Part shown: positions 11,871 to 56,266 of the stretch, one piece after another
How positions within the stretch are numbered: position 1 is the first letter of the stretch
How the letters are laid out: the number at the start of each line of letters is the position of its first letter
Assembly: GCA_010093605.1 (NCBI GenBank)
Contig: MU004197.1
Coordinates: 1,488,707-1,552,706 of the forward strand
Source of the DNA: Lophium mytilinum
Taxonomy: Eukaryota; Ascomycota; Dothideomycetes; Mytilinidiales; Mytilinidiaceae
Length of the DNA: 64,000 bases
Reading direction: 5' to 3'
Position numbers and translations under genes: made by a program
Notes under the pieces: model-generated
Databases searched by the model: none
What the model was told of the DNA's origin: nothing
What the model saw: the letters and a program-made list of their open reading frames with translations, nothing else

Positions 11871-11875
11871 GTAAT
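11871..11875. repeat. Target-site duplication GTAAT, right copy
   Basis: GTAAT immediately right of the 3' LTR, matching 3586-3590. Confidence 0.8.
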
Positions 11876-28179: not shown

Positions 28180-30519
28180 CTACCACCACTGCCTCACACG
28201 GCGTTGGAGGTTGGAAACCCCCGAGGGCGCCTTGTAGTCCTGCGGTGGCACATACCCCCACGGCACAGCAGCAATCGGCACGACCGGCTCCTCCATCTGC
28301 GGCACGAGACCATATGGCCCCTCTACTGCCTGAACAGGGACGAAGCGTGGCTCCTCCATCGCCTGAATAGGAACGAAGCGTTGTTGCTGCATCTGCGGCA
28401 TAACACCATGGGGCCGCTCCGCCGCCTGATTAGCGACATACTGCCGCTGTCGCTGCACCATCTGCATCCGCTCTACGTACTCGTCCTGCTCAACACCCCA
28501 ATAGAAAGGGTTGGGAGGCGTCGCGGGCGCGGTGACGAAGGGGTCAGGAGGAGTGGGATTGTACGGGTCTGAAAACGGGTGCGCGGTCATCGAGACGGCA
28601 GGGCGCATGGAGCCCCAGCCCGGAGCCTTTACGGCACGTCGGGGAGGTAGTGGAATGCCCGGGATAGTGACGTGAGGGGGGGAGTAGCGGGTAGAGGGAG
28701 TGGGTGGGTTGAGGCGCGAGGGGCGCACGAAGCGTGGCGCGCGGTTTGCGCGGACCTTGGTGGAGGGGCATGGTGTGGGTGGCAGAGAGTCGTAATCCTT
28801 CACCCATCCGACTGGCCCATTGTTCTTCATATTGAGAACAAGTCCGCGCGCTGGTGGGATAGTAAGGCTGTAGGAAGGTGGGTTGGCTGCTCCGCCGACC
28901 GTGGGCTCGTGCGTGATGAAGGGGTCGTCGAGGCCTTCAAGCCCGTGGCTCGCCAAGCTGGGGTCAAAGTACTGGGCTGGAACGGCCTTGGTGGCCTTGA
29001 TTGGAATGGGCTCGCCGGTCTCAGCGTTGGCTGTGGCCTTGGCGGCCTCCTTTGCGACGCGAGCCTTGAACCAGCCCTGGTTATCTAGACGATCGCTGGA
29101 AGACGGCGGGTGGGCCTCGTCATGCGACGCCACGGCCTCGATCCTAGGAAGAACTAGAGCGGGTTCGGCCTCGTCCAGCTCAGCCGGAGCATGAGCCTCC
29201 TCGGCGTTGGAGGAACCATAGAATATGGCAGCGATTTTGGGATCGATATCCCCAATTTCTTTGAGATCGGTTTCCTCAGGCTCGGAGATCGCAATCGCGC
29301 TTAGCCCAAGGATTGAAGACACGTCAGAACAGGCGTCGTCGTCATCATGTGTGTCGTCTTCCGCCTCCTCGTTTCCGGTCATCCACGCTTCGACAACCTC
29401 ATCACAATTCGACGACCTCTTGGGAAGCGCGCCCAGGAACCAGCGCTTCAACGGACGGACGTAGACCTTCTCAGTTCGGTCATCATGCGCAAGAAGCAAC
29501 TCGTTTTGCTCCTCCCAGAGCTCATTGTACCGAGTTTCCCAGCACAAGGCGAGACGTTCGTTTTCTTCATAGTTGTCGGCGAGCATCTGGTCTCGGTCTT
29601 CCTTGAGATCATTCACCTCCTTTTTGAGGCAGGCGATTTCTTCGCGAGCGTCCTTCATCTGGGCACCTCGGATACTATACAACTCCTCTTGGAAACCCAA
29701 TTCGTCTTCGTGATGTTCCTTCCAGAACTTGGTGAGGCGTTGAATCAATTCGTCTCGAGGTTCCTCTTCCTTGAGATCATTCACCTCTTTTTCGAGGCAG
29801 GCCACCTCATCCTGGGCATCGTCCAGCGCTTCAGCCAGAGCGTTCGCGCGGCCCGCATTCATGGCAGCTTCTTCCTGCGCAGTCTTCGCGTTTTGTTGGA
29901 CTTCTGCGAGAAGACGTTGCAGCGCGGTGATTTTGGCATCCTTGGTGGCCGATTCTTCTCGCATCGCGTTGTTGTGTCCGGCGTGAATGATAGCCTCTTC
30001 TTTCTTCTCTTTGGCATTCTGCTCGGCGGCCTTGACAAGGTCGCGCAGGATCTGGACTTCACCTTCGAGCTCGTAGGCGTACGTGGCGTTGTATGCGAAA
30101 GGACGAGACAGCAGCATAGCTACAGCAGATACGGAAGAGGCGGATGAAGGAAGGCGGTGATGGGGAGGGGACCAGAGGCTAGATCGCACCGCGTTCTTCG
30201 ACGAATTGGTGGAGTCCTGGCGGGGGGACGCACCCATGGCTTGAAGCGCCAGCCGAACATCTACAGGATTCTTGGTTAGCCAATGCGGGTTTGTGCTGTC
30301 TATGCAGTTAGAAGGCCACTTACTTCGCTCGGCAATCTTCTCTACTGCCCTGGAATAGATAAGTCCAGTCTGGTCGACGGCGGCTTTGGCAGAAGTCGCA
30401 GTCGTGCCGCTCATATTTGGACTTTTCTTCGGCGATGGGCGAGGACCAGTTTCATACAAGCCGACAGAAGCGAGGTACGCGACTACCTCATCGGGTGGTT
30501 GACGGTTGGCGCTCGACAT
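28180..30519 (-). CDS. Cluster gene A: coiled-coil, Pro-rich protein, 758 aa
   Basis: Exons 30324-30519 and 28180-30260, with a 63-base intron (30261-30323) that is also open in frame, so a retained form would have 779 residues. Start is MSSANRQPPDEVV. The family segment YSRAVEKIAER ends exactly at the intron. Residues about 127-324 form a coiled coil with two internal duplications: DAQDEVACLEKEVNDLKE against DAREEIACLKKEVNDLKE, and NAKEKKEEAIIHAG against NAKTAQEEAAMNAG. An acidic stretch, a PPSY motif and a long Pro-rich tail with repeats of the RFVPIQAMEEP type follow. No enzyme domain is visible. It is closest to gene B. It probably acts as a scaffold, which is inference from structure only. 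Confidence 0.75.
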   Translation of the reverse strand: MSSANRQPPDEVVAYLASVGLYETGPRPSPKKSPNMSGTTATSAKAAVDQTGLIYSRAVEKIAERSKWPSNCIDSTNPHWLTKNPVDVRLALQAMGASPRQDSTNSSKNAVRSSLWSPPHHRLPSSASSVSAVAMLLSRPFAYNATYAYELEGEVQILRDLVKAAEQNAKEKKEEAIIHAGHNNAMREESATKDAKITALQRLLAEVQQNAKTAQEEAAMNAGRANALAEALDDAQDEVACLEKEVNDLKEEEPRDELIQRLTKFWKEHHEDELGFQEELYSIRGAQMKDAREEIACLKKEVNDLKEDRDQMLADNYEENERLALCWETRYNELWEEQNELLLAHDDRTEKVYVRPLKRWFLGALPKRSSNCDEVVEAWMTGNEEAEDDTHDDDDACSDVSSILGLSAIAISEPEETDLKEIGDIDPKIAAIFYGSSNAEEAHAPAELDEAEPALVLPRIEAVASHDEAHPPSSSDRLDNQGWFKARVAKEAAKATANAETGEPIPIKATKAVPAQYFDPSLASHGLEGLDDPFITHEPTVGGAANPPSYSLTIPPARGLVLNMKNNGPVGWVKDYDSLPPTPCPSTKVRANRAPRFVRPSRLNPPTPSTRYSPPHVTIPGIPLPPRRAVKAPGWGSMRPAVSMTAHPFSDPYNPTPPDPFVTAPATPPNPFYWGVEQDEYVERMQMVQRQRQYVANQAAERPHGVMPQMQQQRFVPIQAMEEPRFVPVQAVEGPYGLVPQMEEPVVPIAAVPWGYVPPQDYKAPSGVSNLQRRVRQWW
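30261..30323 (-). other. Phase-1 intron of gene A, 63 bases, open in frame
   Basis: Donor A|GTAAGT, branch TCTAAC, acceptor TGTAG. The length is a multiple of three without in-frame stop. It sits at the column where genes B to H also carry a phase-1 intron. Confidence 0.7.
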
Positions 30520-31369: not shown

Positions 31370-33469
31370 TCACAGGTGCCGCTGCGAAGAAGGTACTGCG
31401 ACGGGTGCAGCAATTGGCGCTGTGATGATGGTGCTCCTTTCGAACCCGATGGGGACACGGTATGGGCTACCAAAGGCGCTGACTTGAACCCGTCCATTTG
31501 CTCGTTGCTTGATCCGCTCTGCTTTTGAGGTCTGGCTACCACGAGAGCTGGTAAATGTGGACACGATGGGTTGACGGTTGCGTGCCCGGCCAAGATTGAT
31601 AGCATAGCTGCTCATTTGATAGGCAGTCTCGAGCCTCTCTACCGACCATGCCTCATCGGTGCGGGATGGTAGTTTTGGAACCATAGGAAGCTCCGAGCGG
31701 TCCGGAGGGTAGGTATCATACCGAGGGGGAAAGGCAGGTGGAGCTGAAGACGGAGATAGAGGAGGAGATGGAGGAGGAGCGGGAACAGGAGAGCAAGGAG
31801 CAGATGGCATGGACATGGCGTCGATATACGCGTTCGCGTCATAGAGCTGATCATGCCCAGGCAGCCTGGGGCGGACATGTTCTGCCTCAGCTTGCGCTGC
31901 CTCGCGACGCTCCTTTTCGGAGGCCTCTTCGTCCAGCTTCTCAAAGTGTTCCCTGATAATGTCGGGGACGTCCAGACCTTCAACAATCGGGTTGCGCCAC
32001 TGCCAGAATTGCAAGAGCAACTCGTTTTGCTCCATGATGCCGTTGCGTTCTTTCTGGGTCAATGGAGTCGCTGGACGCATGGGGCCAGTGTATGGGGCGT
32101 CACCTGTCGTCAAGACTTGCACACGGCCGTACTTGGCGACCGGCAGGCAATTTTCGACGGTGTAGCCGATTGGGAGATTGTCATAATTCTCGGTCTCCAA
32201 AAGCTGAACCACCTTCGGTTTCGGAATGACTGGCTCTTGATCTCGGCGCAAGCATTGAACTAAATCCCAATGTGCTCCGGTCGTACGCATGACCTCTGCA
32301 TGGTTGGAGACAACAAGGTTCTCGTTCTCGACCTGAAGGGTAGAGATTTGTTGTCGAAGCTGAGAAATCTCAAGATCTTTCTCGTCGATTTCTTGCTGCA
32401 TAACCGATGTCGCCTTATCATCGCTGATGGGTACACCAGCCAATGCCAGATCTGCACGATCCTTCTGCAACTTGTGTAGGCCCATGAACATCTGATTAGA
32501 CTTCCGAAGGCGTGCGTTCTCCTCGTCCTTCTCCTTCCGGAGCTTCGTCAAATCCTCTTCGAGGCCGCAGATCTCGTTTTGAACGTCTTCAAGTTCATCA
32601 CACTTGGCATTGAAGTGCCCCGCGCTCATGGTGAGTTGATCTTGCAGGTCGGAAATTTGCAGTGAGAATTCCTGGACCTGCCCTCGAAGTATAGCGAGTT
32701 CATTATCTTCCTCGTGCATCTTCTCTTGCATATGACCAATATGCGTGGTGCTGATGACCGCGTGCTCCTCATGCTCGCCCAATGTCTTCTTCAGTACCTC
32801 GAGTTGCTCATGAAGGAGCTGGACCGCTCCGTCCAGCTCGAAGATGTACCACATTGGCACGTCCGCAGGTGCTGAATGGTGGACGTTGCGAGCATGTTGA
32901 TGGTGGCTTTGTTGGTTGTCTGGTGGTGAATGTCCAGATCCGACGCCAGGGTCATGAGGTCGGCCCTGGTGGTTCGTGGGTACGTAGCCACGAACACGAG
33001 GATATGGCGGAGGGATGGCGACGGCCTCGTACTGGGGCTCGAGGAATAGAGATACAGACGAGGCCGACGACGGAGCGCACTGAACCGAGGACGAATTGGA
33101 ATCGGTCGCCACCGGGGAGGATCCGGTAGAGGATTGGATATAGATCGTATAGTTCGCCCCGTTCAAGATTGGCTCTAGGTCTGGATGATTGTCAGCGGAA
33201 GCGCGATCTGCACGATTATGAGGCGACCTACACTTCCTAGCTTCTTCGGCCACGGACTCTTTGTACATCTTTGCAGTGGCTTGGACGGCCGCGGCGGAGA
33301 GACCGCTATCACCTCCTATCGTTGGGTGATGCTGGCGCTGGCGCTGACGACCTCCTACAAGCTGTGAGACAAAGCGGCAATCAATGTTTCGTCCACGAGT
33401 TGACTTACTGAAGGCATCTGCAACGGGCTGGGAAGCCGCACGGCGATCAGCAGCATGGGAACGCGACAT
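31370..33469 (-). CDS. Cluster gene B: coiled-coil protein with PPPY motif, 682 aa
   Basis: Exons 33232-33469 and 31370-33180, with a 51-base phase-1 intron (33181-33231, branch GCTGAC) open in frame. Start is MSRSHAADRR. The family segment YKESVAEEARK precedes the intron. Then comes a Ser-rich part with SSASSVS (shared with A), PPPYPRV, and a coiled coil at about residues 189-373. Its MSAGHFNAKCDELEDVQNEI matches A's MNAGRANALAEALDDAQDEV. A Pro-rich C-terminal third ends the protein. A second possible intron (33355-33408, 54 bases, donor A|GTAAGT) is also in frame and stop-free; if spliced the protein loses 18 residues. It is transcribed like A, about 0.9 kb upstream of it. Confidence 0.75.
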   Translation of the reverse strand: MSRSHAADRRAASQPVADAFSKSTRGRNIDCRFVSQLVGGRQRQRQHHPTIGGDSGLSAAAVQATAKMYKESVAEEARKCRSPHNRADRASADNHPDLEPILNGANYTIYIQSSTGSSPVATDSNSSSVQCAPSSASSVSLFLEPQYEAVAIPPPYPRVRGYVPTNHQGRPHDPGVGSGHSPPDNQQSHHQHARNVHHSAPADVPMWYIFELDGAVQLLHEQLEVLKKTLGEHEEHAVISTTHIGHMQEKMHEEDNELAILRGQVQEFSLQISDLQDQLTMSAGHFNAKCDELEDVQNEICGLEEDLTKLRKEKDEENARLRKSNQMFMGLHKLQKDRADLALAGVPISDDKATSVMQQEIDEKDLEISQLRQQISTLQVENENLVVSNHAEVMRTTGAHWDLVQCLRRDQEPVIPKPKVVQLLETENYDNLPIGYTVENCLPVAKYGRVQVLTTGDAPYTGPMRPATPLTQKERNGIMEQNELLLQFWQWRNPIVEGLDVPDIIREHFEKLDEEASEKERREAAQAEAEHVRPRLPGHDQLYDANAYIDAMSMPSAPCSPVPAPPPSPPLSPSSAPPAFPPRYDTYPPDRSELPMVPKLPSRTDEAWSVERLETAYQMSSYAINLGRARNRQPIVSTFTSSRGSQTSKAERIKQRANGRVQVSAFGSPYRVPIGFERSTIITAPIAAPVAVPSSQRHL
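33181..33231 (-). other. Phase-1 intron of gene B, 51 bases, open in frame
   Basis: Same column and phase as in the other cluster genes; splicing gives ...EEARK-Y-LEPILNG. An alternative acceptor four bases further on would create a stop, so this one is preferred. Confidence 0.55.
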
Positions 33470-33690
33470 CTTGACGTGAGCTATTCTGCGGGTTGGTAGT
33501 GCTGCGATCTAAAATGCTGGAAGGATGAGGTGTTGGGGTTGGTGATGACTGTGTTGGGATACACAAACAACAGTGGGTGGTTGAAGTGGTTGTGAGTGTG
33601 ATGGAGCCTCGAAGTCCTGCCTCGGGCGTGCGAAATATATTTCCTGCCAGCCCGAGTGAATCCACCTTTGCTGATGATTGTCAAGCGTTT

Positions 33691-33696
33691 CACGTG
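33691..33696. promoter_or_regulatory. CACGTG box, 222 bp upstream of gene B
   Basis: Palindromic E-box, CACGTGAT. Equivalent boxes lie upstream of C, D and E at similar distances. bHLH-type factors bind this core, but the factor here is unknown. Confidence 0.45.
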
Positions 33697-35216: not shown

Positions 35217-35752
35217 ATGGCTGTCGGCGGCTGTTTCTGCGGGCACGTTCGAGTCGAATATAATGGTCAACCTCTGACATCGGCTAGTAAACCCCGGGAT
35301 TCAGTGCTTCGGTGAACTTACCTAATTTGATTTTCCTTCAGGTACTCTGCCACTGTCACGATTGTCGTAAGCTTACCGGGTCACCCTACACGTACAACTT
35401 CGTCGTCAAAACCGCAGATCTAAAGATCTCCGGAAGTCCGAAAGAAGTGCCAAAAACAGCGGACAGTGGAAATCCTATCAAGAACTATTTCTGTCCTGAC
35501 TGTGGTTAGTATTACCAGATTGAACTTGAGAAGGAAGTTTTGACGAAATTGCTAGGCACGCCGCTTTTTGGACACAAGATCAAATCTGACGGAGAACCTG
35601 ACGATACTACGGTCGTCCGAGCAGGAATATTTGATGACGACGGGATTTTGAATGAACGGAAACCTGAGGCAGAGATTTACACTGATAGACGACTGGAGTG
35701 GTTAAGTCCCGTCGAGGGGGCTGCGCAAATTATCGGTTATCCGCAAACTTGA
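35217..35752 (+). CDS. GFA/CENP-V domain protein, about 141 aa
   Basis: The product starts MAVGGCFCGHVRVEYNGQPLTS. It continues VLCHCHDCRKLTGSPYTYNF and NYFCPDCG, and ends TPLFGHK...VVRAGIFDDDG. This is the zinc-binding glutathione-dependent formaldehyde-activating (GFA) fold, with CxC, CxxC and CxxCG cysteines. Exon 2 (35342-35504) and exon 3 (35556-35752) join cleanly over a 51-base intron with donor GTTAGT. The first junction is odd: the obvious GTAAAC donor at 35,286 is out of phase. An in-phase join needs a GC donor at 35,283 or a 38-base intron. The gene is either a second GC-AG case or slightly damaged. It is the only plus-strand gene inside the A-H cluster. Confidence 0.75.
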
Positions 35753-36501
35753 CTTAGTGATTGAGTTTGGCACTTGGCGGCATGTCGTTTGGGCTACTGT
35801 TGCATAACATTGAAGACGCGAAGGTGTGATATATCAGGAAGCATGATTGCTCCTGTGATCTGTGAGTTGGAAGGGGCCGAATGGGAGCATGGGAGAAGCG
35901 TGTGTGCATTAGTTTGGTGTTGTTAGTGCACAGAGTCATAGGTTACCGTTTGCCAGCGTTTACTCAGCGGTCTCGAGGCAACATCCCCCGGTGTTTGCTC
36001 TATGTCGAAGAAGTTCAACCTACACTAGATCGATTGTTGATTTCATTCATTCAATTAATTAGCTCTTTTAATCCATTGACCGAGAGAGATATCTCCCTTC
36101 GACTCCAGGATCCAGGACCTGATTGGCAAAAAATCCTAGCGGACGGCAATATATGACCGTAGTTACCTGGAGGTTGTTGCATGAGTTCTGGTTCCTAGAT
36201 CTGTATCGTGTTTCCTAGAAGTCACGTTAGACACTCGTTTCTCAATCACGTTATAAAAGGACGAAGTTAAACGTCTCATGTCATATGACAAATTTGATTA
36301 TCTAGCTACTCGCAAGAGAAAAGAAGGGTATCATAAAGCGATGAAGCCGCCAATCCGCAATCGAGGCCTCTATCGCGCTGGAACAATTCGCCTGAACAAT
36401 GCCGCTCGCACACATTCTACTCGTAGTATAGTAGAACAACAGGAAAAGAAAGAAAAGGGATCGTTCGCTAATCGTGAAAAAACATCATTCGCGCATTAAA
36501 C
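35753..36501. other. Intergenic between the GFA gene and gene C
   Basis: 3' regions of two converging genes. Open frames here (for example 35881-36156 plus) have no domain or family signal. Confidence 0.5.
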
Positions 36502-38867
36502 TCAGAAGAAACGAGATTTCGGCGGTAGGGGGCCCGGAGGACTCGCCATGCCCGGTGCAGTAGGTGGGGCCATAGGTGCTTGTGCAAATAGCGAGCTGAT
36601 TGGAAGTCCCGAGAATCCCAATCCGTTCACCCGTCCGCATCCAGGGGTAGCACCTTGTCCACCGACAGTAGGTGCCGGACGGCTAGTGCCAGTGACGCCG
36701 TTGTCCAAGGACCCTGGGTGTCCGCCGGAGATAGAGACTGGGCGCATTGTTCCAGTTGCCGGACCAAGAGAATCGAAAGAAAAGGTGTTGTATTGCGCAG
36801 GGCGGTGGGTGGCCCCGAAGTCCCCGGAGCAGTCCCCGTCTGGGAGAGTATCTGCAAGAAGGTCATTAGCCACAGGGCGTCCAGCCCCGAATCCAATGGC
36901 CGCTGCGCGAGGGGCACCAAATGGGTTGAAAGCGGCCTGGGAGCGATAGTTGTGTGTAATCGCGGTGCGGACGTTTCCAAAAGCAGTGGGAGGCTCAACA
37001 TCCGGCACTGCGTCTGCGTTGAGATTGGCAAGTGCAAATTGTTGTTGGTGAAGGTTGCCCGAGGGGAAGGCGAGGGCTGGTGCGGGCATTTGGATCGCGG
37101 CGTGATGTGTGGCATGATCGGTGGTAAGGGTGTTAGGGATACTGCCGGGAGCGATGATGTCGGCGACAACTTCGCTATACTGTGACTGGGACTCAGCCCC
37201 ATACGGGAGGCGGTCCTGATGCTCCTGCTGGGTGATGTTGTGCTGGATAGCGTCGGGAGACGTGATAGGAACGGGCAGGTCGGAGACTTTCATGGTGTCC
37301 TGAATAGCATCACGAACCTCATTCGTGGTATCTTCTTCTGGATCAGCACCTGCAACAGCGTCCTGTTTCGGCTTAGCATCCTCTCCTGGCTCAGCTTTTG
37401 CAGCCGCAGCCTCCTCTTGCGTGACGATGATAGAGTCGGTGATAGAGCTAACTGCGCTCTCGGTCAGTTCATGCTCCGATTCCTGACGTTCGCCGTCCCT
37501 CAGTCGCTTAGCAAGGGTAGGGGTATTATGGTAGGTGAAGTCGTCCCCAGGGGCGGGACGGGGTGCGACGTTCCAGATCACCACAGGATCCTCTTTTCCG
37601 GCATGATCTCGCTGACGAAGCTGCTCCCACAGCTCCACGATCTGCTCTTGTTGCTTCGCTTTCTCCTGATTCAGCTCCGCGAGTTGTTCATTCTGTTCAT
37701 TGACTTGCTGCCGAAGCTCGCGCATTTCCACGCGGCCCTCCACCAGCTGTTGACGATACCTCGTCACCACCTTCACGACGCCTTCCTTCTTCTCCGAGAG
37801 TGTCAGCTCACCCACGGATAGCTCGGTGTCGTCGTCCTGATTGTAGCAGCAGTCTTTGATCTGGTCCTCCAATTCGTCGACCAAGTCCTGCAGGTCGTTA
37901 ACGTTTTGGATGTTGGCGTTAGCCAGCTTCAGGTTTTTGTCTGCTTTCTTCTTCAGCTTGCCACACTTGGCCTCCAGCGCCGGGCAACGTGGGCACATGG
38001 GCGGCACCGGCTCTTCCTCATTCTTTGAGACGGATTGATGGCCGTCTCGGATAGGGGTCTGAGACTCGTAGCTGCGTTCCTTGTCGGGTGATGGTGGTGC
38101 AATAACAATGGTCTTGGTCTCGGGTTTGTCCTTGGTTCCAGGGCAGACTTCGTTGACGACATGAATAGTGTCCGTAGTATTGACTACGGACGAGCGCGGG
38201 TTCTCGTTGCCTATACCATCATCGATTAGAGAGACCAGGGTGAGCTCATGTTGATTGTATTGCGTACCCTGTGGTAGACCAGACTGAGGGGTGTCCGGAT
38301 CCAAGACGCGTATGCGCTCTCCCTCCTCTGGTGAATGATCGTAAGAAGGAGGTGCAGTCGCTGACGACGGGGGCTTTGGGGAGCTTGTGCCAGAGCTAGG
38401 CTGAGGAGTGGACTCCGTGGTGACTGTAGCGGATGCGCCGAGAATGGAAAGGTATTCGGACACGTCTATGTTTCCTGTTAGATCAAGTTGAACTGTAGTA
38501 GGGGATGGGGCTTACGTTTGGAGACTTCTTTCTTCACGCATTCTTCTACCAGGGAGCTCTGCTTCAATACTTCCTCCCTCACGAACTTATCTACCAAGAA
38601 ACCAATGCCCTGGCGCGCGGCAGGAGTGAAAATATCGGCAGAGCTCTGTTGATTTTCTGCTCGTTGGGCCGCTGCGATACGCGCCTCCATGACTTCCGAC
38701 ATAATGCTCACTACCTCTTGCGTATGGTATGGATGGGACGTAAGCAATTCCCGGCCCAACATCTTGGCTTTGCGTTGTCGAGGAGGGGGGACGTTCATAT
38801 TCTGCGACTTTGCGATGTCGTGCGGGAAATCTAGTGGGATAGAAGAAGAGAAGCTAGAAGAAGACAT
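36502..38867 (-). CDS. Cluster gene C: coiled-coil protein with PPSY motif, 771 aa
   Basis: Exons 38516-38867 and 36502-38465 with a 50-base phase-1 intron (38466-38515), 772 codons. Start is MSSSSFSSSIPLDFPH. The N-terminal part is basic and helical and ends VEECVKKEVSK at the intron, the column used by the other cluster genes. Then come a Ser/Pro-rich part with PPSYDHSP, a CPRC motif, and a coiled coil at about residues 276-404 (LQDLVDELEDQIKDC; LRQQVNEQNEQLAELNQEK). The rest is long, low-complexity and Ala/Pro/Gly-rich. No enzyme domain. The intron is not a multiple of three, so retention would stop translation here. Confidence 0.75.
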
Positions 38868-39698: not shown

Positions 39699-41969
39699 CT
39701 AGAGTTCATCCTCATCGCTCTTATCTTCTGTCTCTTCGTCAGACTCTTCGCCATGGCTCTCATACTCCGTCTCTCCGGCAGACTCTTCATCATCGCTCTC
39801 AAATTCTGTCTCTTGGGCAGACTCTTTACCATCGCCCTCTTCTTCCACTTGTTCCTCCTCCAGCTCTTCATTGTTCGCCTCCATGTGCTCCTCCGACGGC
39901 GTCTCAGTACTTCCCTTCACTTCGGGCCCGTCGTAGGCTTTGTAGCCCGTCGGTTTATATCCCTTGTAGATGGCTGGATTGACAATCTTGTGCCTCGCTT
40001 TATCCATTCCCGAAAGGATTATGTCGAGCAATTTAGAGATCTCTTCTGCCGAATACTCTTCATTCGATCCGTAGCCCCCAGAGACTATTTCACGCGCAAT
40101 GTTCTCTTTGTTGCTGAGCAAGAGTCGCAGGCGTTCCTGCAGACGTTCTTGCTCTCTCGGCGTTGAGTCCTTCACGTCCTCAGCATCCCTGAACCAGCCG
40201 ATTCCACCACGGAGGGCCAATGGGTCATCGAAAGGAGCAGGATCAGCATCTGGATCCGGGTCGTTGTCCGGATCATGCGATGGAGGGGAGGGGAATTCGC
40301 GGCCGAATTGGATGAACGAAGACACCTCCTGAGCAACCTCCTCATCAAGCCCCTTCAGGTAATCGACTGTGTCCCGCTCATCGATTTCCTCCTCTAACTT
40401 GTCTTGCATGTAGTTAGATTCCGGACCGAGCTCAACCTTAGCAACGTCGAGGAAGCCTTGGAAGTCTTCCAAGTACCCCTTCCAGCGCTCGGCCTCCTTC
40501 GTCTTTTCTTCAAGTTGCTCATTCCTATCCGCCAACATTGCCCGGAATAAGCGAACCTCGGAACGGATGCGCCTCAACGCGGTCTTCGCCTCCGCCCGCT
40601 CTTCTAGGAACAGCGCGGTTTGGGCGTTTGCCTCATGGATAATGTGATGTTTCTCGTGATCCATCTTCTGGTGGTCTTTAGCGAGGAAGTCGCACGCCTT
40701 GTCGCATTCGCGAAGCTCTTTCTTGAGCTCATCGTTCTCCTTCTTCAGCTGATCTTTCTCCTTCCTCAGTCGAGTGTAGTGACCTCTCAGCTCGCGTAGC
40801 TCGACGGGCGCTCCCGGCCTTGGCAACTTTGCGAAGCTTGCGCGGAGTGCGTCTTCCTGCTCTTCCTCAATCGCCTTCGCTTGCAGTATCTCGTCCACTT
40901 TGGCTTTAGCTGCCAGCGCATCAGCCGTCTCTTTCCTGGCCGTGATGAGTTCCTCTTGAAGAGCGTCATATTTGGCTTTTGTGACTAGCGCCTCGCGAAG
41001 GACATCGGAGTTGTCGCAGGCGAGAGGAGTACTAGCGGTGATGGAAGATGGAGGGGTATCGATACTAGGTCGAGGGCGAACATTGCCAGTATCTAGACGT
41101 CCAGCAGTATTAGTAATGAAAAACGAGACTTGCGGTCTGCTATGGGCTAATGCTTACCGATTATAGCGGAGTCCACAGCCTTACCAAGAGTGAACGGAGA
41201 CGCTGACATCGAGGCGCCCTGCTTTTGTGAAACCGAGCTGCATGGGCCCAGGCTCGACGTGTTTGAGGACGTATCGCTTCCATTTCCCGGTGAAGTCGGG
41301 CGAGACTGTACAGAAGACTGACTAGCCGCAGAAAATGGGGGAAGCCACTGATGGTCGCGATAGTCGGAGGGTATATTAGGGGGTGTATTCGAGGGAGTGG
41401 CTACGCTTCCACGCAACTGGCGAAGCAGTCGGACTTCAAGTGCCTCGGGGGGTGAGGGGGTGTTCTTCCTGAGTTCGCGACGAAGCCGCGCCTCCAGAGA
41501 CTCTCCTAGCTCTGTTCAGTCCCATAGATGTTGACAATGATTGCGTGGAACACTTACCAATGTGCAGCATTGCCTTCAGCTGCTCAGCAGGATGATCTGA
41601 TACAGCTGATGGCGGCTGAGCTTTAGTCCGGTAAGCTGGCGGCTCATCCATGGGGCGGCGCATGGCCTGGGTCCCTTGGAAAGGAGGCATCGATACGTTT
41701 GGGGCTGAGGATGTTGCTGGCGCGTCCCCAAATTGAAGACGAGTTCCAGAGGTAGTGGTAGACGGATGAATAGCCTCGATGGCGTCGTGGAGGTTGAGAC
41801 CGCTTGGAAAGTGACGCATCAAGAAGTTGTCGTCTACGATAGCTGCTGACCGGAAGGTAGGCTGGAGCATGGATGCTGGAGGAGGACGAGCAGCCTGAGC
41901 GGCGCGATGCTCCGCCGCCATCGCAGCCGCTGCGTTGAACCGGGGGTACGCGGGAGCAATAAATGACAT
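39699..41969 (-). CDS. Cluster gene D: coiled-coil protein with PPAY motif, acidic tail, 717 aa
   Basis: Exons 41558-41969, 41158-41505 and 39699-41092, with introns of 52 and 65 bases, both phase 1, total 718 codons. Start is MSFIAPAYPRFNAAAAM. PPAYRTK lies near residue 110, and PAEQLKAMLHI ends at intron 1, the family column. Residues about 280-460 form a strong coiled coil (LRKEKDQLKKENDELKKEL). The C-terminus is an acidic tail of about four repeats of the type ESDDEESAGETEYES. The protein has no recognised enzymatic domain. The long coil plus acidic repeats suggest a filament-like or tethering protein. Confidence 0.78.
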
Positions 41970-43605: not shown

Positions 43606-44789
43606 CTATGAGTCGGACGAATCATACTCTTTGTCCTCATCGTAGTACCTGTCCACGCTCCATCTCCGGCATAGCGTCGATCTGTGATAAACCTCCCTCT
43701 CGGGTTTGCCATCGAATCCGATCGTCAGGCGATCAGCCATGCTTTGTCCTTCGGAAGGTAGAGGCGCTTGCTCTTTGTTGACCGGACTATCCACAGAAAG
43801 GCTTCGCATATCAGACTGTGAACTCTTGTTTTCGTCGAGCTTGGTGTGTTCAGATAGGAGAGTATGGGAAGTATCCTTGACCGCGTCAATCTCCTGGGGC
43901 TCGGTTCCGAAGAGTGTTTCGGAATGGGGTTGCTGTTGAGGAAGATGTGCCGCAGAATGAGCCCTGGATGATTGTTTGATTGCAGCGGTCACAATATCGT
44001 TAAGAGTTTCCTCGGCATCCATCTCCTTATTCAAGGCGTCCGCGAGATCTCGCTCAGCTCCATCGTGCTGGCGCATAGTCTCTTGGACACCATCAGCTGA
44101 TGTGGAGGGCAGTGGTTGGAACTTCAAGTTAACAGCATGGAGGTCAATTACTGCATGAGCAGGCGCGCGATCGAGCGAGTTCGCCTGCGCCTTCATTGGA
44201 GCGAAAGAGCAAGCTCTTGGGTTGAGAAGTGAAGTCGAAGCTTTGGGTCGTACACTCTCAGCGTGGATATCGTCGTTGGTCGAATGATTCATGCCAGGCA
44301 TGAAGGGACCGTCGAGATGGACTATACATAAGTGAATCAGTATATGATAATAGCGTGATATTTAGTATGCTACTTACGGTCTTTCGGCGGAAGCTTCAAG
44401 TCCTTGTCCGTCTTCGCCAAGAATTCAGCTATGGATAGCTGTCTGAGGCTTGAAGACGACGGAGTAGCTTCAGCGGCGCTGTCCTGAGAGGCTGATTCCG
44501 CTAGTGCTGATGTCGACGTGGACGAAGGACGCGTGGAAGGGGTTGACTCAGCGCATCGGCCGCGAGCGCGATAGTCAGTCTGGTGAATGGAAGAAGCAGA
44601 TGTAGCATCTTCGTCTTCTTCAGCAACTTGAATCAACGCTACATCAAGAATGATCAGCTTGGGGGGAGGAAACGTCAGCCTAGAGGCGAAGTTACCTTGG
44701 TAGGCTAGACTTTCGATCGCCTTCTGGAATCGACCACTCGTGTATCGAACGAGTGCCGGAGGGAGCTTCTCGCACGTGGTGGGCGGCAT
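43606..44789 (-). CDS. Cluster gene E: short member, Ser-rich, 356 aa
   Basis: Exons 44696-44789, 44378-44638 and 43606-44321. Intron 1 (44639-44695, 57 bases, phase 1) is open in frame; intron 2 (56 bases) is not. Start is MPPTTCEKLPPALVRY. The family segment FQKAIESLAYQ ends at intron 1 and continues ALIQVAEED, almost the same as H's second copy (YDEAIDKIAMQ then ALLQLAEAS). The remaining protein is polar, Ser/Thr/Gln-rich and apparently disordered, with an acidic end (YDEDKEYDSSDS). No other domain. It is the smallest member and the clearest link between the N-terminal segments of the cluster. Confidence 0.75.
44639..44695 (-). other. Phase-1 intron of gene E, 57 bases, open in frame
   Basis: The read-through sequence ends LIILDV just before the acceptor GATGTAG. 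H's equivalent intron ends LTILDV before the same GATGTAG, so the intron ends themselves are conserved. Confidence 0.65.
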
Positions 44790-46299: not shown

Positions 46300-49200
46300 T
46301 TAATTTGCCTTCGCTCTCCTAGCAGCATTGTGCGAGCTCTGATTATCACACAGCACCACCGTGTGCTTTGCAGCTTCCTTTCTACGCTGCTGCACCGCTG
46401 CAATATGGGCAGTGTCTGACTTCGCCATGTCGACTCCCCAGTTGCTCCAAGTACTGTTCGGAGCAAGTCGCTCGGTGAGGGGTTTGCGGACAGTGGTGCG
46501 TCCGAGTGCTTCTGTCTTCGAGTAGTCGGAAGTTGTGAGGCAGGCTGGCGCGGCTCCACGCTGGGGTTTCGTGGTGGGTCGATTCATAGATGTGTTTGTG
46601 GTGTTTGCGCTCTTGCCCGAGCCTGGGGATTTCCGAAGTGGTGGTAGGCCTTGAGTGCCCTTGAAACCTGGAATAGAGGTTGAAACAGGGCGGGGTTTCC
46701 GGAAAGGGAGGGAGGAAGCCACCAAGCTCTGCTTTTTAGGTAGATCAGAGGTCGAAATAGACGCCTTAGCTTTGTGATTCGCAGGCGGAATATAGGTCTG
46801 AACAGTGGGACGAGCAGCCCTAGAACCAGTCTCAGCAGCCTTAGGCTGGGAGGTAAGAACTTTGGACTGGACAACCAGCTTCGGGGTAGACCTATCAGCA
46901 GTAGAAGAGGCAAGCTTGATGCCATACTTGGCACACTGATTATCGTAACGGCCTTTCTTGGGGCGTGCGGACTTCTTCTGTGTGAACTTCTTAGGCTGCG
47001 ACTTCACAACGGTAGCAGGTGCGGCAACGGGGATTGGCTTCTCTGAAGCCTTGGTGGAAGCGGGCGCTGATTTTGGCTCGCGAAGGTGAGGCGGGATGAG
47101 CCTGCGGGAAACTTGCTCAGAGGGAGTGAGAATCGGCTCACGCGACTTCTCTCCAGCTACGGAAGAGACGACTGGAGTAGAAGAAGAACTGCTGACGGAA
47201 TGGTTCCAGTCAGTGCTCTTCCCACTCTCCGAAGTGCTGTCATCAATGACGCTGTCGTGTTCTGAAGCCTCCTCGCACTTTTCAACAAGACGATGAGAGA
47301 ACTTCAGATTTTCGGGGACTTCGTTTGGCTGGAGTTTGGTATTCGACCCTTCCGGTACGGGCCTCAGAGAGCGTTGAAGCCATTGAAGATACCCCTCCGA
47401 GGAGACGGTGGCGGAGAGCCTCGCGAGGGGTAGAGAGGGTACCTCGTCATTAGGAGGATGAGATTCGCAAACAGGAGATATTGCCGCTGCAGGCAAGTCG
47501 ATGATTTCTTCTGGATCCTCTTCAAACGTCGGCTTATCGTCCCACAAAGTCATCGCACCTGGAGGGATGGCGTCCTCCACATCCTCCCACCAGTCAAAAC
47601 TGATGTATTTACGTAGTTCAAGCCTCTCAACATCCTCGGAGGCCACCACCATTTCGCGTGCTTGAACGGGTGCCACCAATTCTTCGTCGTCTTGCGCATC
47701 GCTAATGATGGATCCGCGGCCTGCTGGCTTTGAAAATCCACGTTTGTAAAAGTCTTCAACAGCTTTCCGGACTCCCCGACAGAGATCCTCTGGGATATCA
47801 TCAAGCAGGTCGCCGAGGAAATTATCGACTTTGGCGGTGAGAGAATAAACGACGGGGACTTTGGCTGAAGAGGAGACCTTGACGATTCCTTCTCCGTGGT
47901 CGAAGAACTCGGGAGTCGAGGCGGGGTGTAGAGTCTCGATGACTGAGACCGTGTCGATTCCGCACGCGGTGGGTTTAGAGCTGACTGGGTCATTTTTGGC
48001 TAACATATGACCAACGGAAGCCTCAAAGGCGGCCCCGTAGACATTCTCGAACGGCAAGGTCGTGGTGTCCTCTTGGCGAAGCGGTTCGTTTTTGGCTAAC
48101 ATTCGACCAATGGAAGCCTCGAAGGCGACCCCGTAGACATTCTCGAGAGGTAAGGTCGTAATCTGCTCTTGGCGAACCGGTCCATTTCTGGACAACATGT
48201 GGATCACGGAGTCCTTAAAGGCTGATCCGGAGAGGTTCTCAAACGGTAGGGATGTCAATGTATTGACCCGAACAGTGTTCAGGTTGGGCAGAGGATCTGT
48301 TATGCATGAGCATTACCATCAGAGAATTTGTGTCTATGTGACTTACCGAGCTGCACGATATACTCTTGAGTATTCTCTTCGACGGTGAGGTCAGTCTTGT
48401 TAGGCTGATGTGTGACAGCCTTTTTTTCCTCTTCGAGAGGGCCAAGTGGCTGGGAGCTCTCCTCGTGTTCCGTCTTCTCCTCAATCTTCGTCTCATGGAG
48501 ACCGAGATCGCAGACAACTTGTTTAAGGACGAGGTCGTCCTGGAGAGTCCCTATATGACCAGCCTCCCCATGAAGGTCCTCCTCGGTGTCGCCTCGAGAA
48601 AGCACGCAGACGGCAACATTTTGAGCCTCAGAGAGGCTGTCCTGGGATGCTTCGGTGGATACCACCATGGTGGGCTCGAGATCGTCATCATTCTCGACCG
48701 GGACGGCAGCTTTGGATTCTGCATAGTGTGTCAGTGCGATAGAGGAGAATACATAGTTTGCTAGCTTACCTTCACGAGCGTTGATCACATCCAGGGTCTC
48801 CACGGTTGTAATAGAGTCTTCATCTGATTCGTCCATTGTTAATGCACTGTACTGGACACCCAGTCCGAGGCTAAGCACTTACCTTCAGTGGGCGTAGAGG
48901 AGCGCTCTGTAGTATCCTCGGAGGATATTTCCCGGGCCAAGACGACGACTCGTTCTACGCACGAAGAACGGGAATCTTTAGAGCGAGTGATCTCCACTGG
49001 CACAAACTGTACCACTCCATGGAGAATTTCGGTCTCAGCTTTGGTTGCAGAAAGCTGCGCACGAGCAGTCTGGCTGCCAGTTTGCTCGACCTTGACCATG
49101 TCCGTCTGGATAGAAGTCTGCTTTGAGCGATCTCGAACATTGAGAGGCGTCGACTTCTCACGACACTTGGCCTTGGTCATGGAACGAAGAACATGCGCAA

Positions 49201-49528
49201 AAGATGCTAAGAGGAGGTTAGTTTTAGTGAATAGAAGTGAGTGAGAGGGATTCTTACAACTCTGAGAGAGCTTCTCAACAGCCTTATCATATTCTCTCAT
49301 GGTGTATGCCATCAATTCGGATGGCAAATGACCTGGGACTAGTAAGCTTCTACATCATGAAGACTGGTATGATTGGTGAAAGGCATTACCCTTCTTCATG
49401 GTCGAATCCTTGTGTTTCTTGCCAGGCTTGGGGTTGGAACGGTCTTTGGAGGAGGTAGGATTTGAAGAAGCCTCCACAATCATCTTGACAGGGGGAGTGA
49501 TAGGTGAGCGAGTGGAAGAAGTGGACAT
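46300..49528 (-). CDS. Cluster gene F: PPHLR-motif protein with 32-residue repeats, 986 aa
   Basis: Six exons: 49390-49528, 49258-49332, 48883-49206, 48770-48823, 48347-48718 and 46300-48296, total 987 codons. Start is MSTSSTRSPITPPVKM. The family segment YDKAVEKLSQS ends at intron 2. Residues about 335-430 are three tandem 32-residue repeats with core TLPFENVYG-AFEASVGHML. Around residue 720 is RRLIPPHLREP, and further on TYIPPANHK. The C-terminal part is basic and Ser/Pro/Thr-rich. Introns 2 (51 bases) and 4 (48719-48769, 51 bases) are stop-free multiples of three; the other three are not. No enzymatic domain. It is easily mistaken for three separate genes because the frame changes at each intron. 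Confidence 0.75.
47968..48255 (-). repeat. Three tandem 96-bp coding repeats in gene F
   Basis: Units 48160-48255, 48064-48159 and 47968-48063 encode 32 residues each: T-(T/S)-L-P-(F/L)-E-N-(V/L)-(Y/S)-G, then AFEAS, then ML-(A/S)-(K/R)-N. Units 2 and 3 are most alike, so unit 1 is the older copy. Confidence 0.85.
49207..49257 (-). other. Phase-1 intron of gene F, 51 bases, open in frame
   Basis: Donor T|GTAAGA, branch ACTAAC, acceptor CTTAG. Same column as in the other cluster genes. Confidence 0.65.
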
Positions 49529-51039: not shown

Positions 51040-53415
51040 TCAGTCAGTCCACTCTGCGTCCTTGGTGTACCGAGTGTTGATGTCGTACTCAACCTTCTGC
51101 GGAATATACGAGGCCATCTTGGCTCTCACTTCTGCATCCTCACTCTGGAAGGCGCTCAACCAAGCAGCCCCGCGTTCTGTCTGCTGTCGCGGCCTGGCCT
51201 TTTTCGAGGCCGCCATCCTGTCTGCTTGGACCTTCGTCTGCTGAGCAGCCTTCTTGGTCATAGGGGCGGACTTCGTAGCAGCGACTGTCTTAGTCGCAGT
51301 AACTGTCTTCATAGTAGCGACGGGGCTCTTGTGGTGCGAAGCGGCACCAATGCGAGGACCCTTTGAATACTGGTGAGTGATGGGCTTGGTTGGGCAGTCT
51401 CGGGTCATATGACCCTTCTCCTCACACTGGAAGCATTTGCCCTCCTTCATCAGGCGAGCACGGCGCTCTTGGGACTGCTTAGGGTTCATTCGAGGACAGT
51501 TAACGTGACCTAGAGTGATCTTCGACGCCGAACCTGCGGGACGCGTCGTCAGGCTCGTTGACGGGGCGAGGGCTTCGTAGTCACGTACTGGTGGTGGAGC
51601 CGAGTCTGCCTCTGGGGTGGGCTTTGATGCGGGAGGAGAGATGGGATTGCCTTTCGTGACAACTGCCTCGGAAGCGGGCTCTAGAGGCAATACTGCAACC
51701 GGAGTCTTGACTTCGAGCGTCCTTGGTCGTACCCTCAAATTCGGAGGGATGTACATGGAGGAGGTCGGGCGCTTCTTGATGGGCTTCGAAGTGTACAAAG
51801 TAGCCAAGCTCTTCGTGTTCGTACCTTCGTCGACCGGGCTTAGATCTTTGGCCTCTACCGTTCCTTCATTGCTGGCATCTTCATGGAGAAGTGCTTCTTT
51901 ACCTTCAATGGAATTTTCCTCCACGACTGTCATATTGTAGTCAGAGATCTCCTGCTTAATCTTGGCAGAGACCGTCTCGATGGACTCTTGAGGAGCGTCT
52001 AGAGTTGAGGTCAAGATATCATGTACAGGAGTAGTTCGAACTCCTTTCTCGCCTTTGAGTTTAGCCTCTAAGTGGAGAGTAAGCAGTGGATCTACTGGAG
52101 GGGTAGAAGAAATGGCCTTTGTGGCTTTGGTGTCAAGAGACTGCTCGACTAGGGGGGACGACGGAATGATAGGCAAAATAGCTGCAGTGGTAGCCTCGCC
52201 TTCATTGGTAATCCTCTGTTCGGATTCGACCTCGAGAAGAGTGGCAAGAGAGCCGATCGGTGTTTTGACGCGAACAGGTTGAGAGACCGTCAAGATTAAT
52301 GCGGGAGTAGACGAGAGAGTAGAGATGACAATATTGTCCTCATGTAGGGAAACTTCCTCCGACGCAGAATCAGACTCTGGGGTGGATGTGTCCGCAAATT
52401 TCGGAGAATGAGTGGCGTCATTCGTAGCCTCATGGTCGCGGACCTGCGCAGTGTCATCTTGGCTGCTGAGCATTGAGTCAGCTAGCCGTGTTGTAGTAGC
52501 AGCGCATTGCTCAATTGGGGACAAGAGAAGTGGCTCGTCCTGCAGAACCACATCCTCGCCACATGAGACATCAATCCGCTCGTCTCGTCCGCTTTCAGAG
52601 CTTTTGATCAAGTTGCGTAAAACCATAATTGCGCGGTCCATTTCGTCCAGAGCATCGATTTGCCTGCGGACGACCAAGGCTGTGTCGTTAGAAGCGCTTT
52701 CCAGCCCTCTCCCACTCCCGGCATTGTCGTTGTCTAGTACATTTTGGTAGTATTTGATCTCTGCCATCTGCTCGCAGAACTTGGCGAAGCTGTGTTCGAG
52801 GCTGGCGGCCTTCGTCGTTTCGGATGATCCCAAATCGACTTTCTCAGTTTCCGGTGCTGCGATTTGGACCTCGACTGGTTGTCTATTGTGGCAATCCTTC
52901 GACATAGGAGGGTTTGCCGGAGATTGAGACATAGGTGCGGAAGTAGGCGAAGTCTCCTCCAGTACTGCAAATTGGCGAATTAGTACACTTCTCTGAAAAT
53001 GATCTCAGTTAAAAAGCTTACCAACTGCTACATCTTTATTCTCAACTATAGGCCGATTGGGTCTACCCATGCTGAGTAGAAGCGACAATGGAGACATTGA
53101 ACGAGGCAAGCGGGTCGCCTCCGGAGAGCTGGGCTCGGAAGACTTCGAAGACGTCTTCGAATTAGAGCTGAGACGGGACTTCGAAGAACCACGCGAAGAG
53201 TTCGGCTGAGAATCTTGCTTCTCAGCAGCTTCAGCAGCCTTAGATAGTAGATCTAGACACGCATTAGCAACAATGTCGAGTGAATCGAAAAGATAACAAG
53301 CGGTACCTTTCTTGGCTTTCTTGTCTTGCGCGCGCTGTAGACTGTTCCTAGTGATTAAAATAAGGGAAGTTGGGAGTCGAGAAATAGACGTTGGTGGACG
53401 GTGCGGAGAAGGCAT
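51040..53415 (-). CDS. Cluster gene G: CCHC zinc-knuckle protein, 754 aa
   Basis: Exons 53307-53415, 53022-53252 and 51040-52964, total 755 codons. Start is MPSPHRPPTSISRLP. The family segment LQRAQDKKAKK ends at intron 1 (53253-53306, 54 bases, open in frame). A Ser-rich stretch follows, then a long acidic Ser/Thr/Glu-rich middle, SSMYIPPNLRVRP near residue 518, and one zinc knuckle KCFQCEEKGHMTRDCP near 615-635 (C-x2-C-x4-H-x4-C). The C-terminus is basic. The knuckle points to binding single-stranded RNA or DNA. I considered a domesticated gag, but no capsid region is visible and the rest matches its cluster neighbours. Confidence 0.78.
53253..53306 (-). other. Phase-1 intron of gene G, 54 bases, open in frame
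   Basis: Donor G|GTACCG is weak, branch GCTAAT, acceptor TCTAG. Same column and phase as in the rest of the cluster. Confidence 0.6.
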
Positions 53416-54152
53416 TGTGGCGAACAATGCAGAGCAAAAGGGTGTTGACAGATGGAAAGATACACTGGGCAGTTATAGGACACGCCAAAGACTTTTGGAA
53501 GCTCAGGGTGGTGGGGTGGGGTAAAAACTGTAGTGCAGTGTGTGTGTGAGGAAGGAATGTCGGTCGACGGTTCGATGAGGCATTTTGTAAATAGTAGCTC
53601 TGAGATCTTAGGGTCATGTGACCTAATTGGGCAGGTAGTGAATCGGTTGCCTTGCAGTTGTAGAAGGTCAACACGGTGGGAAGTAAACCACCATGTGACC
53701 ATTCATGGAGCTGATACCTAGGGTACTCCGCACAGTGCTATCTAGCCAGCAAGAAATGGGTCTAAGTACATCAATTCTTCGCTATCAGGTCTTATGCATT
53801 CTAAATACAGTGGAAAGGCTGATGAGCTGCGAATTAGACTCCCTCTTATCTATCCATGTACCGGCTAGCCAGTGCACTCCTTACAGTGGTATGAAGCGCA
53901 TAAGAGCAGAGCACAAGTAGTGAGTTATCCGCACGCCCAAATCTATGACCTAGTAATGTTTACAGAACCACCTCTTTGCAGATGGGAACACAGTGTATCG
54001 TGAGATTTTGTACATACATTGACGCTAAAGAAGCTAATATTAGTCTCTAAGCTGTTAGACAGAGTGTGAAGTAGAAAACACGAGGTTACCCTGGGGCCCT
54101 GTTGAACCGATCCCTTAAAACAACCACAACACAAAAGATGAAGAAAAAAGCC
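53416..54152. other. Gene G promoter and gene H 3' region
   Basis: CATGTGACC occurs at 53615-53623 and 53692-53700, about 200 and 280 bp from the start, a one-base variant of the CACGTGAC boxes upstream of other members. The remainder is gene H 3' flank. Confidence 0.5.
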
Positions 54153-56266
54153 TTACTCAACCTTTCCACGGACCCAACCCATAAGGGTAGCACCATCAGT
54201 TCCGCCAGAAGAATACGGCGACTCGTCGTCCGAATCATCATCCACATAATCCTCGCCACATCGCTGAGCGTACCGTCTATCCTCAGCCTTCGCCTGGGCA
54301 GTCTTCTCCCTGACTACACCCAAACCAGCACCCTTAGGGCGAGTGTTGACCTCAATAGGGCCGAGAATACCTTCGCCTTCTTTGCCGAGGCCTTCGCCCT
54401 CTTTGTAGCCCATTTTCGCCATCAACTTCATTGTAAAAGCGCTCATTGCAGGTTTTTCCTCGATAGGTTTAGCTTTGGGTGGGAGGCGTTCGGACGAAGC
54501 GTGCATGCTCCGCGACAGGCCTTTGAAACCGGGCTGTGAACCTTCATTGGATACAACAGATTTGGAGACGCCCTTCAGAGTAAGCGGCGGAGATGGTGAT
54601 ATCCGCTTTTCGTTGCCGTACCTCAGATGAGGCGGAACACTAGCCTTCACAGCCTCAGAAGCTTCGTAAATCTTGGAAGGTGCTGGGGCAAACGCCGGCT
54701 TCCACGTCTGCGCTGGGCGTTGGAAGCTAGAAGAGGTGATCGTATCGTTTTGGCTGGTAGGAATTGGAGGCGAAGTAGGTTCAGAGGTGGTGTCCTGCGA
54801 GCAAAGCTCGGGCAGAGACAGCTGTTTTGGCGTTGTGGAAGCAATCTTCTTGGCCCAAGGCCTCAGATGCGGGGGTAAATACCGCGTGTCATCAAGCACC
54901 GCATTGAGCCGGGCGGTAGAGCGCTTGATCTCAGTCTTATAATCCACGCTATTGTCCGTGGTCTCAACGTCGAATCCACGTTCCGCCGTCACTGATCGGT
55001 TGGTAAAGCTATCGCTAGGCTGCGAGAGGTTTGTACCGTCGTGCAAGGTCGTAGAGAAGTCATCGGAGGAAACACTAGGAGTGGTGGTGTCCTCTGCCTG
55101 GCTATCCATGATTTCAGATGCTTGAGCAGAGATCTTGCCGATATGTTCCAGGTGCTCGACGTCAATAGAGATGGTGTCTTCCTGTTCAGCGCATTCGTGA
55201 TCAATGGCTAATTTGGATATCTCGATGTCGACACGGATATGTTCCGGCTGAAACCCCTCGCCTTCGACAGGCGTGGTCATTTCAGCCAGATTAGGGAGAG
55301 GATTTGACGGAAGTTCGGAGACTGCCGAAGAGTCATCAGTCGCTGTAAGAGTGTGAATTAGTACTAATGTACAAACCTGAAATCGGGGATACTGCTTACC
55401 CAATGCTGCAAGACGTTCGGAATCGGTCTTATTGTCGCTTTCAATATCCTCAGTAGAGGCCTGTTGGAGTGGCTCCTCGACCTTCGGTCTGTTTTCATCA
55501 TTGCCCTGCTGCGAACCAGAGTTCCTAGGGTAGATTGACCGCCCCGAGGAGAAAGATTGCTCCGAGGATGGCGTTGGAGAAGTTTCAGTTGGAGAAGTTT
55601 CAGTTGGAGAAGCTTCCGGCTCTTCTTCGTTAGTTGAGGATGATTCTCCTGCTTCCTCGTCATCGTCATCGGAAGCTTCAGCAAGCTGAAGAAGTGCTAC
55701 ATCGAGGATAGTTAGCACTGAAAATTTGGACGCAGGGTAGTCTGTTCCACCTTGCATGGCGATCTTATCGATGGCCTCGTCATAAGACTTCTGCACAAGC
55801 TTGACAAACTCTATCGGAAGGCCAACATCGCGACACAATATACCGAGGAGTGCCGAGGACGCGTCCTGCTCGCTTCCCTTTTCGAAAGCGGCAACAAGGA
55901 GAAGTACTGCGATCACAATGGTTAGAATAAATGATACAAAGGGGAGGCGACTGTACCTTTGATAAGAAGCCTCTCCACGGCTTTTTCGTAGGCCTTAGCC
56001 TGTGAACCAGCGGCAACGGGAGGGGCTCCGGCAGTCTGACGCATCATGCAGCGCTGAAACGTTGGATCTGCAATCTGTGAGCCCATGCGTAAGAGAAGCG
56101 CTTGTATTGACTAACTTTGAGAAAGATTCCACTTCGCAGAGAAGAAGCTAGTAGGGGAGTCCGGTAGGACGACGGACTCGCTTCGAGCAGCTGGCTCGAG
56201 CATATTGCCGAAGCGAATGGAGGCCAATCTGGCATCAACAACGCGCGAACTAGCAGAAAAGGGCAT
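54153..56266 (-). CDS. Cluster gene H: G-patch protein, 634 aa
   Basis: Five exons: 56116-56266, 55957-56067, 55751-55906, 55400-55696 and 54153-55342, total 635 codons. Start is MPFSASSRVVDARL. The family segment occurs twice, YEKAVERLLIK (ends at intron 2) and YDEAIDKIAMQ (ends at intron 3). An acidic, Ser-rich middle follows, then RYLPPHLRPW near residue 397, SVPPHLRYG near 477, and a G-patch at about 539-585 (MAKMGYKEGEGLGKEGEGI, then RPKGAGLG). G-patch domains activate DEAH-box RNA helicases or bind RNA, mostly in splicing or ribosome assembly. Introns 3 (54) and 4 (57) are stop-free multiples of three. The C-terminal acidic tail is short. This is the only member with a domain of well-known type. 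Confidence 0.82.
55343..55399 (-). other. Intron 4 of gene H, 57 bases, open in frame
   Basis: Donor G|GTAAGC, branch ACTAAT, acceptor TTACAG. Retention would add 19 residues after ERLAAL. It lies at a different position from the family intron. Confidence 0.6.
55697..55750 (-). other. Family intron of gene H (second module), 54 bases, open in frame
   Basis: Donor G|GTGGAA, branch GCTAAC, acceptor GATGTAG. The equivalent intron after H's first module (55907-55956, 50 bases) is not a multiple of three. Confidence 0.6.

Follow-up and report, generated by a model that had tools for sequence, protein, structure and literature searches.

Eight genes lie in one direction between positions 28180 and 56266 of a 64,000-nt stretch of the Lophium mytilinum genome (43.2 Mb, 24 contigs), and they raise the question of whether proteins with such different remainders can descend from one ancestor. 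The whole stretch, here called the window, sits on contig C17. A sequence-only reading of it had proposed one diverged tandem family with a common segment at the N-termini. Sequence comparison lends good support to the kinship of six of the eight genes, A, B, E, F, G and H, together with a ninth gene, I, found elsewhere in the genome. The membership of C is doubtful, and that of D, which shares position, strand and intron phase only, is unproven.

Gene models of the block

The eight genes, A to H (Table 1), have long open frames on the minus strand and their spliced models are free of internal stops, in agreement with the sequence-only reading. The first exon of H had to be redrawn: as first bounded it holds an in-frame stop, so that a further 48-nt phase-1 intron is needed. 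This intron is numbered H1 and the intron of the first module copy H2. The small gene reported to interrupt the block is indeed a GFA gene by Pfam, and it is encoded on the opposite strand. The block is flanked by one gene on the left and two on the right, whose domains were assigned with Pfam and which we take to be ARMT1-like, UBC1-like (ubiquitin-conjugating) and RPT2-like (proteasomal ATPase), respectively. An apparent GC-AG intron of 57 nt was noted by hand at 26176-26232 in the ARMT1-like gene. In gene F, about 2.2 copies of a 96-bp repeat (47991-48198) appear in the protein as repeated LPFENVYGAAFEAS-like units.

Table 1. Features of the block and its ninth relative; positions are those of the window unless stated, and the caret marks the module intron.
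Feature	Position	Strand	Description
ARMT1-like gene	26219-27208	plus	left flank
Gene A	28180-30519	minus	758 aa, 2 exons (30519-30324, 30260-28180); module KAAVDQTGLIYSRAVEKIAER^NVRLALQAMG
Gene B	31370-33469	minus	664 aa, 3 exons; module AAAVQATAKMYKESVAEEARK^YLEPILNGAN
GFA gene	about 35217-35800	plus	PF04828, E 1.3e-34
Gene C	36502-38867	minus	771 aa, 2 exons; weak module REEVLKQSSLVEECVKKEVSK^HVSEYLSILG
Gene D	39699-41969	minus	719 aa, 3 exons, both introns phase 1; no supported module
Gene E	43606-44789	minus	356 aa, 3 exons; module PALVRYTSGRFQKAIESLAYQ^ALIQVAEEDE
Gene F	46300-49528	minus	986 aa, 6 exons; module SELMAYTMREYDKAVEKLSQS^SSFAHVLRSM; PPHLR at residue 723
Gene G	51040-53415	minus	754 aa, 3 exons; module TSLILITRNSLQRAQDKKAKK^DLLSKAAEAA; CCHC knuckle; PPNLR at residue 520
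Gene H	54153-56266	minus	634 aa, 5 exons; two modules, two PPHLR motifs, C-terminal G-patch
Modules of H			first copy ...YEKAVERLLIK^VLLLVAAFEK; second copy IEFVKLVQKSYDEAIDKIAMQ^ALLQLAEASD (contains YDEAIDKIAMQ)
Module intron, second copy of H	55697-55750	minus	54 nt, phase 1, stopless, branch-like CTAAC
Gene I	589534-589797 of contig C22 (match to E)		module AAICDWTGKTYEQLLEKIAIK^ALLAKAAQHE; CCHC knuckle

The shared N-terminal module and a ninth member

In A, B, E, F, G and H the N-terminus contains a common segment of about 31 residues, which a phase-1 intron interrupts at the same residue each time; H carries two tandem copies of it. The comparison used ten segments anchored at the intron, with null windows taken from the nine proteins themselves, coiled coils of A-D among them. 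With 14 residues before the junction and 12 after it, the null windows as good as the segment (of 5602) numbered 0 for A, E, G, I and both copies of H, 1 each for F and C, 3 for B and 1129 for D. When the same window was scored against the five core modules only (E, G, I and the two of H), the counts became 0 for A and F, 16 for B, 114 for C and 1765 for D. The window was lengthened to 21 residues before and 10 after once the read-through peptides hinted at upstream likeness; none of 5551 null windows was then as good as A, B, E, F, G, I or either copy of H, whereas 15 were as good as C and 1008 as good as D. Against the E-I group alone, the lengthened window gave 0 for A and B, 237 for C and 1767 for D. 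The common segment claimed for the whole block is thus upheld in six of its genes and doubled in H, weak in C and at background in D. The claim that the segment ends exactly at a phase-1 intron is right about the intron and wrong about the end: likeness runs on across it in the second copy of H, in I and in E, where the junction is followed by ALLQLAEASD, ALLAKAAQHE and ALIQVAEEDE, respectively.

Among up to 31 shifts, nine of the ten segments, all but D, scored best in the register of the intron, and the 12 other intron junctions gave low scores with the core modules (best -4.8). Open phase-1 donor-acceptor pairs were scanned in leave-one-out fashion over 123161 bases in 17 records. Among 12713 non-module pairs, those as good numbered 1 for A, B and G, 0 for E, F, I and both copies of H, 14 for C and 1679 for D. 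With any GT donor admitted in the 17 records, a stronger non-module pair appeared (the L042 junction, 13.2); it is antisense to a gene with several knuckles and was put down to chance. By eye, six of the nine segments other than D (A, B, E, F, G and I) have a threonine four residues before the tyrosine position; C and both copies of H lack it. MAFFT applied to the spliced segments shifted A and C by 4 columns, and the intron-anchored alignment, which the register scan prefers, was used in its place. A profile search of the PDB with the module, built from the MAFFT alignment in which A and C are shifted, gave nothing convincing (best E 0.009, the designed protein TRI-05), and the read-through peptide of the second H copy returned only itself as a query.

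A genome search with E led to gene I on contig C22 (E 2.8e-6), which has the module, three modelled phase-1 introns, a CCHC knuckle and a tail motif in common with E. Its public protein is L. mytilinum BU16DRAFT_601034, a 701-residue model in which the module intron is spliced, the second intron (I2) is left unspliced and the third ends six bases later than in the present model. The match between I and E runs about 24 bases beyond the stop codon of E (43582-43606 of the window), where the sequence is acidic and contains one TAG. The tandem block stands as described, and "one tandem family" is too narrow a description because gene I is on a different contig. No further member came from searching the whole genome with each of the nine proteins; since an intron within the segment blunts a search of this kind, the count is a lower bound. 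Those searches added I, an NTR1-like gene discussed below and, likewise as lower bounds, matches weaker than E 0.001. With B as the query, A was recovered at E 6.9e-9; D found only itself; and a match to C on contig C1 (E 0.22) was dropped as antisense to a long unrelated frame. A zinc-knuckle search of the genome gave 47 matches, and matches below the cut-off occurred also in 5 of 14 control genomes. Thirty of these matches were taken as loci with flanks of about 1.5 kb, together with four longer stretches; a scan of 321583 bases in all, overlapping loci included and donors restricted, revealed no further module.

Protein databases were searched with three of the nine members, A, H and I, the 8000 candidates sharing most words being scored for each. 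A and I found only themselves, H found nothing and missed itself as well, and no relative outside the L. mytilinum genome was seen for the three among the candidates scored. No description of the A-I family was found in the open-access literature searched, in line with the sequence-only reading, which knew of no family with this layout.

Divergent tails and a possible scaffold

The tails were compared with the modules removed, by local alignment against block shuffles. Three pairs stand out, A-B (z 15.4), E-I (z 11.5) and G-I (z 5.2); the other 33 of 36 lie at or near background (z 3.0 or less), and no tail of A or B aligns with any tail of E-I above it. The sequence-only reading had named background scores between members as the result that would count against it. 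Scores of that kind characterise these 33 pairs and D, but in the N-terminal segment the seven core genes score above them. Its division of the tails into coiled-coil and RNA-linked types was broadly right: A and B have a coiled coil in common (E 3e-16), and segments are shared by E with I, among them RLTIG.DGKPEREV, and by G with I.

A CX2CX4HX4C knuckle is present in G and I; zf-CCHC exceeds the cut-off in I (21.4 bits), and in G it scores 19.4 bits against a cut-off of 20.8 with the last exon and passes in the genome search. Four PP[HN]LR motifs were counted (shuffle mean 0.0032), one each in F and G and two in H: LIPPHLR, YIPPNLR, YLPPHLR and SVPPHLR. The class was widened to N after G had been seen; with strict PPHLR, one copy remains in F and two in H. 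One extra PPNLR was found in six frames, outside the gene models. BLASTP finds nothing common to F and H beyond PPHLR. The last exon of H contains a G-patch (PF01585, E 7.4e-15), which with the stretch that follows it is 67% identical over 73 aa to a gene on contig C12; two other G-patch-like matches to H in the genome are weaker (28 and 33% identity). The C12 gene carries GCFC and G-patch domains by computation, and we take it on that account to be NTR1/Spp382/TFIP11-like. The likeness to NTR1/TFIP11 is confined to these 73 residues near the C-terminus of H: the last exon of H has no match to GCFC, the module is present instead, and BLASTP finds no other common segment. The simplest reading of this similarity is that the G-patch of H was captured or duplicated from the NTR1-like gene. 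In Pfam scans, the last exons of A-H gave otherwise only matches below the cut-off (best ATG16 in B, E 3.9e-5), that of F gave none, and no Pfam family was found for the common part of the genes with these eight last exons as queries.

The background-level comparison of the A and B tails with those of E-I would suit two adjacent lineage-specific families, one of coiled-coil proteins (A and B, with C and D) and one RNA-linked (E-I), whose N-termini converged on a short helix rich in Lys, Glu and Ala. The segment is just 31 residues long, B was reached by 16 of 5602 windows when the shorter window was set against the core modules, and C shows little likeness to the E-I group taken by itself (237 of 5551). 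Against convergence, A and B match the E-I group on their own with none of 5551 windows from the same proteins, coiled coils included, doing as well; the phase-1 intron falls in the same register; and the threonine before the tyrosine position recurs on both sides. We regard two families as unlikely, though as an account to be taken seriously. The idea that unrelated orphan genes lie together by chance and resemble one another superficially at their starts fares far worse. It would accommodate D, which fails the sequence tests, the mostly unrelated tails, and the fact that the last-exon queries and the PDB search gave neither a Pfam family nor a convincing structure for the common part, but the module statistics, the common intron register and the ninth copy on another contig disfavour it strongly, and we find it hard to credit.

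The reading we prefer, which in our judgement is about evenly balanced between right and wrong, is that A, B, E, F, G, H and I are one undescribed family that arose by duplication, with the module as a docking tag and the tails as cargo of a lineage-specific RNA-protein scaffold. The ancestral unit would have been the N-terminal segment of about 31 residues with its phase-1 intron. Growth would have proceeded by gene duplication and, in H, also by tandem duplication of the module, which a symmetric 1-1 exon would ease. The segment may form a helix through which all of these proteins dock or oligomerise, and it would bring the fast-changing tails as cargo to a common assembly: coiled coils from A and B, the CCHC knuckle from G and I, a G-patch from H whose expected partner would be a DEAH helicase such as Prp43, and from F, G and H the PP[HN]LR motifs, which resemble the eIF4E-binding motif of DDX3X. 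The result would be a lineage-specific RNA-protein scaffold. Structure prediction of the N-terminal part, which the sequence-only reading had proposed, was made for I only; single-sequence AlphaFold places one helix there, which runs through the module from residue 32 to residue 70 and is predicted with low confidence (mean pLDDT 39.6). In the 18-residue core, the amphipathic moment lies at the 100th percentile for A and the 95th for B, but at the 7th for G and the 20th for I, and a uniform amphipathic docking helix is therefore unsupported. G-patch factors are described as recruiting and regulating the DEAH helicase Prp43 (PMC9860317), and YIPPHLR of DDX3X as binding eIF4E (PMC9642913); with these precedents an RNA-protein assembly is the most economical guess, and both it and the docking role are proposals. 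F, G and H resemble DDX3X in this motif; their last exons are without a helicase domain, and their eIF4E binding is putative.

Introns, their phase and their possible retention

All 22 modelled introns in A-I are of phase 1, 19 of them in the block. In the UBC1-, RPT2- and ARMT1-like neighbours, counted by hand, 2 of 10 introns are (Fisher p 4e-6), a value that overstates the case because the family introns, many of them probably inherited copies, are not independent; no more than a few ancestral introns of phase 1 would be needed for the uniformity. For comparison, 172 of 534 introns are given as phase 1 for core genes of Fusarium verticillioides in PMC5677156.

The reading frame forces 10 of the 19 block introns: C1, D1, D2, E2, F3, F5 and H2 have lengths not divisible by three, and F1, G2 and H1 contain an in-frame stop. 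The other nine (A1, B1, B2, E1, F2, F4, G1, H3 and H4), like I2, are unforced and rest on splice signals, with additional support from the alignment for the module introns among the nine. Multiples of three make up 12 of the 19 (binomial p 0.007) against 3 of the 10 neighbouring introns, and 9 of these 12 are stopless where 5.5 are expected. Introner-like elements, a class expected to show near-identical intron copies, were rejected as a source, as pairs of introns score close to shuffled ones; the highest score was 9.0, for E2-H4, where 600 shuffles reached at most 7.5.

Six of the nine module-position introns in the window are both multiples of three and stopless, and these could be coding, the module then being two short conserved pieces joined by a variable linker of 17-21 residues that was misread as an intron. 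The sole protein-database match for A, of 779 aa, does read through the stopless 63-nt module intron, from which it also follows that automatic models of such genes may be wrong. Yet the ends are GT-AG throughout, a branch-like CTRAY lies 15-21 bases before the 3' end in eight of the nine (all but D1), the public model of I splices at this place, and in C, the first copy of H and I the module introns are 50 nt long, so that splicing is needed to keep the frame. Coding introns are accordingly very unlikely in our estimation. A related thought, to which we attach very little weight, is that the intron which splits the module works as a switch, leaving the helix intact or interrupted and so attaching rapidly evolving coiled-coil and RNA-remodelling tails to a common scaffold, or detaching them from it, across the array; it draws on the six module introns of the block that could be retained in frame and on the excess of stopless introns divisible by three. 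The same excess would suit a conflict locus, such as a spore killer, a heterokaryon incompatibility locus or another selfish system, with spliced and intron-retaining N-termini as its isoforms. Stop-free introns of such lengths are reported as under-represented in Yarrowia (PMC2911113), and the divergence, the tandem layout and the lack of outside relatives of A, H and I in the database search are in keeping with a locus of that kind. On the other side, Pfam scans of the last exons contain no recognised toxin or NLR family and paralogy inflates the intron-length statistics, and we consider a conflict locus highly improbable.

Families known by gene structure and not by sequence exist, and the preferred A-I family differs from them in phase, size and tail content. 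The bicycle genes of aphids, as described by Stern and Han (2022, PMC9168663), are likewise highly diverged, recognised by gene structure, nearly uniform in the phase of their internal exons and subject to fast protein change. Their internal exons are many, small and of phase 2, and they are putative gall effectors, whereas the introns of the Lophium family are few, of phase 1 and fungal, and no secretion signal is apparent by eye. For the RNase-like effectors of powdery mildews, a common origin is argued in PMC6759760 from a conserved intron position despite eroded sequence; these proteins are described there as secreted and of RNase-like fold, in contrast to the Lophium proteins of 356-986 residues with coiled-coil or apparently disordered tails. 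The A-I family is largely missed by ordinary sequence search and can be recovered from the exon-junction segment and the intron phase, an approach that offers a route to the same family in other Dothideomycetes. It makes a testable case of one N-terminal module with changing tails, one of which matches the G-patch of a core splicing factor, in a host whose genome bears a strong signature of RIP-like mutation close to the array.

That signature occupies bases 1-13000 of the window (TA/AT 1.83, substrate index 0.18), which are AT-rich (GC 0.29), have a RIP-like dinucleotide bias and adjoin a region of normal GC. In the block A-H the values are 0.75 and 1.18, and RIP was rejected as its present state on the ratio of 0.75 against 1.83. 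A reverse-transcriptase-like fragment was noted by eye near 7983-8345. Two minus-strand genes at 18779-19942 and 21192-22352, 32% identical over 277 residues, form a second diverged tandem pair near the block, and one of them has a BTB match below the cut-off (E 0.0061).
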